A stretch of DNA of 64,000 nt, taken from contig JAIMAU010000001.1 in assembly GCA_023511795.1 (NCBI GenBank), positions 264,384 through 328,383 of the forward strand, given 5' to 3'. Below the pieces are notes generated by a model. That model was not told the DNA's origin, made no database searches, and saw only the letters and a program-made list of their open reading frames with translations. Position numbers and translations under genes: made by a program. Below are positions 13,079-34,474 of this stretch, in pieces. Position 1 is the stretch's first letter; the number at the start of each line of letters is the position of its first letter. The stretch is from Armatimonadota bacterium (GTDB lineage: Bacteria; Armatimonadota; UBA5829; DTJY01).

Positions 13079-13175
13079 GCTAACTTCGGCAGCCTGGCAG
13101 TCATGTCTCCTAATCGTTGGGAGAGTTAGACCCAGCGGCTTTGCGTCCCCGCCTTTCGACGAGTTTGCCTTTTTC
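13079..13175 (-). ncRNA. Cyclic-di-GMP-I (GEMM-I) riboswitch aptamer
   Basis: The minus-strand RNA contains the hallmark elements in order. AGGCAAAC is followed by a CUCGUC-GAAA-GGCGGG hairpin whose GAAA loop docks in a receptor, then the near-invariant GGGACGCAAAGCC. The second hairpin begins CUGGGUCUAA, pairs through UCUCC/GGAGA, and returns with ACAUGACUGCCAG, the tetraloop-receptor side. It closes with GGCUGCCGAAG, where GGCA/UGCC forms the basal helix. A G (not A) precedes GCAAAC at the position I align with Vc2 G20, which argues for c-di-GMP rather than 3',3'-cGAMP; that alignment is from memory. It lies 120 nt upstream of the orphan gene at 12959 and after the GHL10-like gene. I see no strong terminator, so translational control is more likely. 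Confidence 0.9.
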
Positions 13176-13233
13176 GGTTGCTCGTTACCAATATAATTAT
13201 TGGTACAAGAATATGAGCTTTTACCCCGTAAAA

Positions 13234-31867: not shown

Positions 31868-31898
31868 ATTATCGAAAAATCTCATAAATGCGAAAACA

Positions 31899-31978
31899 TA
31901 TCGTTAGAACAGGCGATCCCATTAAAGGGATGGTGCCGGGCTTGTGTTAACAAGCAGCAGGTTGAACCTGCGGGACTA
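31899..31978 (+). ncRNA. NiCo (czcD) riboswitch aptamer
   Basis: The RNA shows the conserved order of this Ni2+/Co2+-sensing class. AACAGGC is followed by the GAUCCC/GGGAU hairpin, then GCCGGGC, a CUUG/CAAG hairpin, GCAGCAGG, and GCGGGAC near the 3' end; the consensus has CAGGC, GCCGGGC, GCAACAG and GGGAC at these places. It stands between a strong promoter and a cation-diffusion-facilitator gene, the usual target. The last stem (GCAGG 31957-31961 with CCUGC 31967-31971) shares its 3' strand with the following terminator, so metal binding should prevent termination and switch the exporter on. Confidence 0.88.
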
Positions 31979-32006
31979 CTTCATCATTTGTACCCGCAGG
32001 TTTTTT
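31967..32006 (+). terminator. Riboswitch-controlled terminator
   Basis: CCTGCGGG (31967-31974) pairs with CCCGCAGG (31993-32000), followed by TTTTTT. The 5' strand is also needed for the last aptamer stem, so terminator and metal-bound aptamer exclude each other. Confidence 0.88.
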
Positions 32007-32035
32007 GTTTGAAAAATGATGGAAAAAGTTTCTAC

Positions 32036-32902
32036 ATGAATAAAACTGGTGCGGCGAGACTATCAATAATATCGAACGTCTTGTTGGTGCTGGCGAAGGG
32101 AGCCATAGGCATCCTTGGTGGGTCAATGAGCATCCTTGCTGAGGCTGTGCACTCGGCAGTGGACCTAATTGCCGCCATTGTTGCCTATATTGCGGTGCTT
32201 TTTGCCGACCGACCTGCAGACGAAGCGCATGCATATGGCCATGGTAAATTTGAAAACCTTTCGGGCACGGTTGAGGCCCTTTTGATTATTGTAGCAGGCG
32301 CATACATAGTGTATGAAAGCATCAAGCGTATTATAACTAATGCTCCAGTGGAGCGTCTTGACCTTGGCATGGCTATAATGTTGGTCTCTGCTGTGGCGAA
32401 TTTTCTTGTGTCAGCAAACCTTTTCCGTGTCGCCAAGCAGACAGATTCGATTGCACTTGAAGCTGATGGCCATCATCTTAGACTTGATGTATATACTTCC
32501 TTAGGCGTGCTTTTGGGTCTGATTCTGGTTCGTTTGACCAATTTCGTGATTCTCGACCGCTTAATTGGTCTGTGCGTTGCCCTATGGATTGGTTGGATTG
32601 GCATCCAGCTTTCAAGGAAAGCTGTTGGGCCTTTGATGGATTCCCGACTTCCAGCGGCTGAAATGGAGCGAATCGTTGAAATTATCAAATCAGAACCCGG
32701 AATCCTCGATTTTCATAAACTCAGAACGCGAAAAGCAGGCGCCCAGCGCCACATAGACGTTCATTTACTAATGCCTCGCGATATGAGCCTCATAACCGCT
32801 CACGAGCTAGCTGAAGAGGTGGAGGATAAAATTCGGTCTGAGCTCGAAAATGTTACAATCGTTACCCATGTTGAGCCTGCTGAAGAAGACAGTAACGCCT
32901 AA
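32036..32902 (+). CDS. Cation diffusion facilitator metal exporter (CzcD/FieF family)
   Basis: A 288-aa inner-membrane antiporter with about six helices. The two metal-binding motifs of the transport site are visible: AEAVHSAVDLIAA in helix II and EADGHHLRLDVYTS in helix V (HxxxD type). The C-terminal part from about 205 is the cytoplasmic dimer domain (SEPGILDFHKLRTRKAGAQRHIDVHLL). An upstream in-frame start at 31988 would lie inside the terminator hairpin, so ATG 32036 is used, although its ribosome site is weak. Control by the NiCo riboswitch predicts export of Ni2+ and Co2+ (established logic for this class); Zn or Mn export cannot be excluded. Confidence 0.9.
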   Translation: MNKTGAARLSIISNVLLVLAKGAIGILGGSMSILAEAVHSAVDLIAAIVAYIAVLFADRPADEAHAYGHGKFENLSGTVEALLIIVAGAYIVYESIKRIITNAPVERLDLGMAIMLVSAVANFLVSANLFRVAKQTDSIALEADGHHLRLDVYTSLGVLLGLILVRLTNFVILDRLIGLCVALWIGWIGIQLSRKAVGPLMDSRLPAAEMERIVEIIKSEPGILDFHKLRTRKAGAQRHIDVHLLMPRDMSLITAHELAEEVEDKIRSELENVTIVTHVEPAEEDSNA

Positions 32903-32905
32903 AGT

Positions 32906-32934
32906 TTGATTTCCCATCAATATGGATATATTAA
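32906..32934 (+). promoter_or_regulatory. Candidate promoter of the hairpin RNA
   Basis: TTGATT (32906-32911), 17-nt spacer, TATTAA (32929-32934). The predicted start near 32941 falls 11 nt before the first base of the long RNA stem. Confidence 0.45.
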
Positions 32935-32940
32935 AATAAG

Positions 32941-33062
32941 CAGGAGGCTGGCAGCATTTGCCGGACCTCGTGTATGGTAACTCACTGACTGCCCGCCCAT
33001 GTCGAGTGGGCGGGCAAGAGAAGTGAGTAAAACCTGAAGCACGGGGTCCGGCAGATGCTGGT
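32941..33062 (+). ncRNA. Unassigned structured RNA candidate (long hairpin with central bubble)
   Basis: A 21-bp basal helix pairs 32952-32972 with 33040-33060 with only G-U interruptions. Above it lies an asymmetric bubble (about 8 and 12 nt, with a possible GGU/ACC pairing inside). A 6-bp helix follows (32981-32986 / 33022-33027), a small internal loop, and a 9-bp GC helix (32991-32999 / 33007-33015) with a 7-nt loop. The architecture resembles 6S RNA, but it is shorter (about 120 nt) and I do not recognise its conserved bases; it is not SRP RNA, which needs a GGAA loop. There is no U-run after it. It could be an independent RNA, a leader for the SIMPL gene, or a palindromic repeat. Confidence 0.5.
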
Positions 33063-33252
33063 AATTTATAGTTGCTGATAGAAGGTATCCTACGTCTGCT
33101 TTTGTTCCTGCCTTTTTGTTTTTGCATTGGTAAACCTGAGGAAAATCTGCATCCGGTACGGATTGGTTTAAGAAGCACCGAAGCAGGGGATGAAACTTTT
33201 GGTATCCTCCCCATTCGCAAATTTTCGCACCCAGCGGAAAGGCTGACCGACT
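33063..33252. other. Gap between the RNA candidate and the SIMPL gene
   Basis: No confident feature. One TTG-started frame (33072-33260) encodes a short hydrophobic N terminus but lacks a ribosome site and overlaps the next gene start, so it is not called. Confidence 0.4.
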
Positions 33253-34005
33253 ATGTCTGAAACGTTTGTTAACAAATCGCTGGTTTCATGCTTTATTATT
33301 GCTCTAATATTATTAGCGTTGTTAGCGCCTTCATGTTGTTGGTCACAGCTTACTTCCGATAGGCAGCCTCCTTTGTTAACGGCATCTGGCAATGCCGAAG
33401 TGAGGGTTCGCCCCGATCTTGCGATTGTTCGGCTTGGCGTGGAGAGCGAGGCAAAAACTGCTGCCAAAGCTCGAGAAGAGAATGCGAAGAAGGCAAATGC
33501 CATAGCTGCTGCTCTTAAAACACTTCGCATTCCGGCCGCGAATATTGAAACATCTACGTTTCAGATTTCGCCAGTACGTCGCTTTCCCGAGGGAAGCTCT
33601 CAGCAAGGTCAGCCTCCAATTGTGGGCTATAGCGTTACCAATATCGTGACTGTTAGAACTGGACAACTTGATCTTGTCCCGAGAATAATCGATGACTCAG
33701 TCGTGGCGGGAGCTAACGAAGTCCAAGGTGTGGATTTTGTTTTGCAGAATGATTCTGTTGCCAAACAGCAAGCCCTAAAAGCAGCTGTTGCAAATGCGAG
33801 AGAAAATGCTCGTACCATGGCAAACGAACTTGGGTTAAGACTAGTACAGGTACGGTCTATTCAGCAAGGCGGTGTGGGGGTCGTCCCACCTCCCATTTTC
33901 TATAGGCTTGGGGCTGCTGCTCCCACTGCAACCACACCAACGCCTATTTTTCCTGGGGAGGTTACCATAAATGCTTCGGTAACACTTACTTACTCAATTC
34001 GATAG
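33253..34005 (+). CDS. Exported SIMPL-domain (DUF541) protein
   Basis: A 250-aa protein with a Sec signal (MSETFVNKSLVSCFIIALILLALLA) followed by a SIMPL domain: LTASGNAEVRVRPDLAIVRLGV is the family start, KAREENAKKANAIAAALKTL the first helix, GYSVTNIVTVRTGQL and LVPRIIDDSVVAGANEV the middle, and ALKAAVANARENARTMANELG the second helix. E. coli YggE is the best-known relative; the function is not settled (stress protection, envelope oligomers). The Cys-Cys near the signal end does not form a good lipobox. The STAS gene follows by 25 nt, likely on the same transcript. Confidence 0.85.
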   Translation: MSETFVNKSLVSCFIIALILLALLAPSCCWSQLTSDRQPPLLTASGNAEVRVRPDLAIVRLGVESEAKTAAKAREENAKKANAIAAALKTLRIPAANIETSTFQISPVRRFPEGSSQQGQPPIVGYSVTNIVTVRTGQLDLVPRIIDDSVVAGANEVQGVDFVLQNDSVAKQQALKAAVANARENARTMANELGLRLVQVRSIQQGGVGVVPPPIFYRLGAAAPTATTPTPIFPGEVTINASVTLTYSIR

Positions 34006-34030
34006 CTGCTTGCGAAGATTGGAGGTTAAG

Positions 34031-34474
34031 ATGACAAGTAAGGAAATATTTCAAATTGGGGTAAACGAGATTGGGACGACCAGAGTACTCAGGCTAATAG
34101 GAGATCTTGACTCTTATACAAGCCGCCGCCTCTTGTTTGCAGTGGATTCGTGGATTGATAATGTAGAAAAGCTTCTTGTAAATCTGGACCAAATTGAATA
34201 CATAGACAGCACCGGCCTTGCTGCACTTGTCGCAATTTGGGTCGAAGCTGAAAAACGAGGCGTTCGCTTTATATTGTCGTGCAAGAACTCGCGAGTATAC
34301 AGGATTTTGGAGATCACCGGTTTATTGAACCTGTTTAATTTAGCCGAGGGAAGCACCACATCTATGCCTACAGTTGGGGGAGCGCCACCAATTATAAGCT
34401 CAAAAAGAGAACAAAAGACACCACCAATTGGTGGACCGACGTCGTTTATGCGAAACAAGCGGGTAGGCGGCTAA
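34031..34474 (+). CDS. STAS-domain anti-sigma factor antagonist
   Basis: A 147-aa protein. Residues 1-105 form a STAS domain with VLRLIGDLDSYTS and the phosphorylation loop YIDSTGLAALVAIW, whose Ser is the target of RsbW-like kinases and SpoIIE-like phosphatases. The last 40 residues are an unusual Pro/Gly/Ser tail (TVGGAPPIISSKREQ, TPPIGGPTSFMRNKR), probably disordered. ATG 34031 follows GGAGGT with 6 nt, better than the in-frame start at 34010. The kinase and phosphatase of a partner-switch are encoded at 24735 and 25309, so this is a plausible middle component (inference). Confidence 0.87.
   Translation: MTSKEIFQIGVNEIGTTRVLRLIGDLDSYTSRRLLFAVDSWIDNVEKLLVNLDQIEYIDSTGLAALVAIWVEAEKRGVRFILSCKNSRVYRILEITGLLNLFNLAEGSTTSMPTVGGAPPIISSKREQKTPPIGGPTSFMRNKRVGG

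Follow-up and report, generated by a model that had tools for sequence, protein, structure and literature searches.

Positions 32936-33062 of the window, i.e., the whole 64,000-nt stretch of Armatimonadota DNA under study, likely constitute an independent gene whose product is a discrete non-coding RNA about 125 nt long; this RNA would belong to a new family, be expressed from a sigma-B-type promoter and probably act in trans by protein binding. As far as searched, the family appears to be restricted to one class of the Armatimonadota, and we regard the explanation as a whole as likely. Sequence comparison supports a rod-like fold, a single copy per genome, an own promoter, independence of the neighbouring genes and the absence of a protein-coding frame. 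With its conserved fold and a promoter resembling those read by the bacterial general-stress sigma factor, the hairpin is more probably a stress RNA than a repeat or a 6S RNA. The features of the locus are compiled in Table 1.

Table 1. Position of the hairpin RNA, its substructures and the adjacent elements within the window.
Feature	Position	Strand	Remarks
Cation diffusion facilitator (Cation_efflux + ZT_dimer), upstream gene	31988..32902	+	behind a NiCo riboswitch at 31895-31980
-35 element GTTTGA, sigma-B type	32904..32909	+	begins 2 nt past the stop codon of the efflux gene
-10 element GGATAT (family consensus GGGTAT)	32924..32929	+	14-nt spacer; conserved in the family; GGA here, not GGG
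Structured small RNA, ~125 nt	32936..33062	+	predicted 5' end, based on the spacing to the promoter; 3' end uncertain, genus without U-run
Basal helix, 5' strand	32952..32973	+	predicted to pair with 33039-33060, 22 bp
Conserved core, 5' side	32974..32988	+	AUGGU-A-ACUCACU-GA; columns near-invariant in alignments A4/A5
3-bp helix	32976-78 / 33032-34	+	predicted fold
7-bp helix	32980-86 / 33022-28	+	predicted fold
Apical arm, 10 + 2 bp	32989-33000 / 33006-33018	+	predicted fold
Apical hairpin	32989..33018	+	loop GUCGA (family loop YNHAG-like); double changes in 8/10 pairs
Conserved core, 3' side	33016..33034	+	AAGAGAAGUGAGUAAAACC; most conserved stretch of the family
Basal helix, 3' strand	33039..33060	+	predicted fold
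Possible downstream terminator tail, TCCTGCC-TTTTTGTTTTTG	33106..33124	+	pairing with GCAGGA 32940-32945 not preserved in sister species
SIMPL-domain protein (DUF541), downstream gene	33253..34005	+	190 nt downstream of the RNA
STAS-domain protein (anti-sigma antagonist type)	34010..34474	+	follows the SIMPL gene

Fold and covariation of the hairpin RNA

The + strand between 32890 and 33080 folds at -96.6 kcal/mol, compared to -53.0 +/- 4.4 kcal/mol for 200 shuffled sequences, none of which was as stable (z = -9.96), and a folding z of -10.7 was obtained for the minimal element (32938-33062). An earlier note, drawn up from the sequence alone, had described a structure far beyond chance, which is borne out by these values. 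The helices of 21, 6 and 9 bp given there came close to those measured, without matching exactly the 22, 3, 7 and 10 + 2 bp found here. In all 12 homologues the + strand folds better than its complement and many of the preserved pairs are G-U, so that the + strand is the right one. Across the family, hardly any variation is seen in the loops around GGU-n-CUCnC / nGAG-UAAA-ACC and AAGWGA.

Strong compensatory changes, whose absence the earlier note had named as counting against the RNA, were found in two alignments. In alignment A4, which was fitted to the structure of the covariance model, 26 of 38 pairs were doubly changed, among them 12 of the 14 consensus pairs of the basal helix, the 12 sequences being related so that the counted changes do not equal independent events. 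The covariation score of 0.522 was matched in 0 of 500 shuffles (0.235 +/- 0.019) and fell to about 0.09-0.17 when the pairing partners were slid. From the structure-blind MAFFT alignment A5, RNAalifold derived the same fold, with double changes in 23 of 34 pairs. Between the two species of the genus, only 2 of 114 positions differ within the RNA, both in the apical loop, compared to 11 of 117 in the adjacent flanks (Fisher p = 0.019; p = 0.0008 with the apical loop left out). Family and fold are well supported by these comparative data.

After the helix, a U-rich tail with 6-7 T in 8 nt is present in 10 of 12 members and absent in the genomes G000, to which the window belongs, and G003. The earlier note had rightly recorded no U run directly after the hairpin (GGTAATTTATAG), and the genus of the window has lost the U-run.

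Distribution within the Armatimonadota

BLASTN within the class identified a copy of 95% identity in the sister species (L005). It also identified diverged copies, in G011, G012, G025 and G026, which have ATGGTnCTCACTnACGG...AAGWGAnGnGAGTAAAACC in common. A covariance model built from six sequences (R1) was run with strict filters, which may overlook weak members. Of the 28 class genomes, 12 had a match, a single copy in every case (E 1e-14 to 1e-32), and, under the same strict filters, no homologue was found in 263 Armatimonadota genomes outside the class. The same 12 genomes were recovered at E 5e-26 to 8e-39 by a model built from 12 sequences and run with permissive filters (R2), which additionally returned a weak match in G013 (L172:1508-1640). 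As it agrees with the family in promoter, 5' part including the leader, basal helix and location ahead of murA, this match was kept as a variant; it also shares the U-rich tail and has a different apical domain (tip). No further copies were found with the variant's own sequence. Weak R2 matches in G019 and G022, which are without the family's conserved sequence, were dropped, and a match in G002, located inside a coding ORF, is due to chance.

An exact motif scan of one genome per species (GTDB; 84,980 species) matched 8 contigs, six of them labelled Armatimonadetes/Armatimonadota and two, labelled 'bacterium', taken as the class members G025 and G026; no match occurred outside the Armatimonadota, exact-motif searches being bound to miss members with changed cores. 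The sequences originate largely from metagenome-assembled genomes. The full motif had no match in viral contigs, and a 14-mer scan of these contigs was unspecific and set aside.

A sigma-B-type promoter precedes the RNA

The promoter-like pair mentioned in the earlier note is present ahead of the stem and is a better match to the sigma-B type (GTTTGA-N14-GGATAT, 32904-32929) than to sigma-70. The sigma-B consensus of B. subtilis is GTTTAA-N14-GGGTAT (PMC9847131) and that of S. aureus GWWT-N14-17-GGGWWW, a promoter of which kind is carried by RsaA (PMC3861533). All 12 upstream regions tested (11 members and the G013 variant) contain GTTTnn-N14/15-GGRWA, with little variation in its distance to the core; GTTT-N16/17-GGRWA was found in 0.3% of background 60-nt windows. 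Likewise, all 12 agree with a degenerate form of the GTTTAA-N14-GGGTAT consensus (N13-17), the -10 element of the window being GGATAT. A sigma-70 scan does not list the promoter of the hairpin RNA. Reading it as a sigma-70 promoter (TTTGA..TATAAA) gives a poorer fit: most members lack the last T of the -10 hexamer, whereas GTTT and GG are invariant.

The promoter is, by its sequence, predicted to be read by a general-stress (SigB/F/G) sigma factor. A sigma factor of this type (TIGR02980, above the curated cut-off) is encoded in 24 of the 28 class genomes, including all 13 with the RNA. The four genomes without it also lack the RNA, and 11 of the 15 RNA-less genomes possess it, an association that agrees with the prediction but is not significant (p = 0.10). 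Among matches to GTTT-N13..19-GGGTAT in two genomes, the RNA's own spacing of N16 was enriched (27/111, p = 0.003; 0.006 without the RNA itself). As the motif was overall not more common than its reversed control in these genomes (62 vs 74 and 49 vs 61), the claim of a regulon is weak. No such promoter was clearly found within 1.5 kb upstream of the sigma genes that would indicate autoregulation.

Proposed mode of action

A general-stress sigma factor reading this promoter would lead to accumulation of the RNA under stress or in stationary phase. The RNA may then, more speculatively, act in trans via its asymmetric internal loops, in which the sequence hardly varies (UnACG / CAAGWGA, and n / UAAA beside GGU-ACC). 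Since invariant loops in a freely covarying rod are characteristic of a protein-binding platform more than of pairing with mRNAs, we favour, as a matter of judgement, that the RNA sequesters or scaffolds a putative partner protein; naming its molecular target would be a guess. A wider version, which is tentative and which we rather doubt, would be a class-wide general-stress RNA of the Armatimonadota whose invariant internal loops serve to sequester or scaffold one specific protein, including the version with the exchanged tip in G013. If true, 6S or CsrB-type RNAs would have in it a counterpart under a stress sigma factor, and its fold would be new.

As the chief competing mechanism, it is also possible, albeit short of probable, that the product of the same stress-induced RNA gene base-pairs with mRNAs, as S. 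aureus RsaA does, via the unpaired CAAGAGA, UAAAACC or 5' GAGAGG. Conserved unpaired segments do exist, and known sigma-B-dependent sRNAs act in this way (PMC3861533). However, the conserved segments of the hairpin RNA are confined to short loops inside a highly stable rod and do not lie in open tails or large loops.

Neighbouring genes and independence of the RNA

In the window the RNA lies between the cation diffusion facilitator and the SIMPL-STAS genes, whereas murA-mreB (an EPSP-synthase-fold protein and MreB) are the neighbours in the family f5, and ABC transporter, SpoIVB-peptidase/propeller, BsuPI-domain or radical-SAM and AAA_26-DRTGG proteins in others, in either orientation. That the neighbouring genes differ between families argues for a stand-alone RNA gene. 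The element had also been suggested to be a leader of the SIMPL-STAS genes, and a cis-acting leader or attenuator of these genes (or of murA elsewhere), through which the stress promoter might, in this genus, also drive the STAS anti-sigma antagonist, would be consistent with SIMPL being located on the same strand 190 nt downstream of the RNA, with a core-to-murA distance of 265-465 nt in f5, and with the lack of a U-run right after the hairpin in the genus of the window. Against this, the neighbours change between families and are sometimes encoded on the opposite strand, a terminator-like U-run follows the helix in relatives, and G001 keeps the CDF-SIMPL pair without the RNA. In addition, murA of f5 has its own strong sigma-70 promoter (TTGACA...TATACT) between the RNA and the gene. 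We therefore consider a leader function unlikely.

Several further elements were observed around these genes. A NiCo riboswitch (window 31895-31980, +) is located directly ahead of the cation-efflux gene and occurs also in the sister species (L142), and a c-di-GMP-I-GGC riboswitch (68 bits) was found at 13084-13178 of the window (-). A protein-based GTDB scan for SIMPL relatives found none. In L174, L175, L182 and L183, the stretch from the RNA to murA contains another conserved DNA motif (~TATACCTTTTG...GCGTTATTA), which is kept also in G016 and G017, genomes without the RNA. The murA-like matches in G000 (L190, G000:C8:2376-3638) and G003 (L191) each contain one in-frame TAG, those in G019 and G020 one TAA each.

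Relation to 6S RNA and remaining alternatives

Some bacteria carry two 6S RNAs, and the rod-like outline of the element, which had been called 6S-like, could suggest a second, divergent 6S RNA sequestering RNA polymerase. A search of window positions 32800-33300 against Rfam 15 (4227 families) returned no match at E<=10 to any family, including 6S, and the homologues also miss; SRP, RNase P and Ro/Y RNA families were covered by the Rfam scans of the element itself. The 6S family is defined by a closing stem, a large central bubble and a terminal stem (PMC3847290). The hairpin RNA falls below the covariance-model threshold of RF00013 and does not have this layout: a central bubble of 6S size is absent, and both the family consensus and the MFE fold contain only small asymmetric loops, in which the conserved sequence resides. 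A canonical 6S RNA is encoded elsewhere in the same genome (G000:C2:143182-143376, 90.5 bits), so that the element does not have to stand in for a missing 6S RNA, and 6S was found in 24 of the 28 class genomes; among these are 11 of the 13 genomes with the hairpin RNA. Thus, the 6S likeness is not supported and a second 6S RNA appears quite improbable, while the new RNA family that the earlier note had also considered gains support from the lack of an Rfam match together with the strong covariation. In three genomes of the family (G001:C90, G002:C5, G004:C123), the genes for 6S RNA and for the SigB/F/G sigma factor are about 4.5 kb apart.

The start of the promoter 2 nt past the efflux stop codon may also point to a 3' end or terminator hairpin of the cation-efflux mRNA, which is very improbable, as the homologues do not follow efflux genes and every tested member has its own conserved promoter. 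The long inverted repeat is hardly that of a palindromic repeat or MITE, the former already raised in the earlier note, as the genome-wide check for repeat copies refuted this by detecting one copy only in the 3.09-Mb genome, and one copy per genome, covarying helices and a conserved promoter were found throughout. A gene for a small protein, with the conserved AUGGU as its start, has equally negligible probability, since, despite an open 31-codon frame in G025 and an AUGG-to-conserved-ACC spacing of 60 nt in most members, the frame is refuted by stops within the RNA in most members (G000, G003, G009, G011, G018, G023, G027), and the helices covary.

Significance and comparison with known systems

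In the literature available for searching, small RNAs of Armatimonadota were not described in any paper found, and the hairpin RNA provides this phylum with an RNA family that is backed by covariation and has a conserved promoter. The predicted controlling sigma factor makes the general stress response of an uncultured lineage testable, and the invariant loops in a covarying rod are a ready bait for the partner molecule.

Among known systems, 6S RNA (RF00013) is likewise rod-like and present in one copy per genome with its own promoter; the hairpin RNA differs in being shorter, in lacking a covariance-model match and a central bubble, and in occurring in genomes that have a genuine 6S RNA. With the Rfam 'motif' families, i.e., candidate structured RNAs from comparative genomics, it shares the definition by covariation and conserved loops, but it matches none of the 4227 families of Rfam 15. 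The sigma-B-dependent sRNAs of Firmicutes (RsaA/RsaD/RsaF and SbrA-C of S. aureus, and the sigma-B-dependent RNA of L. monocytogenes) are alike in the GTTT-N14-GGGTAT type of promoter and in the SigB-type sigma factor encoded in the genome. In contrast to these, the hairpin RNA matches no Rfam family, forms a rod with invariant internal loops and is conserved over several families of an Armatimonadota class.
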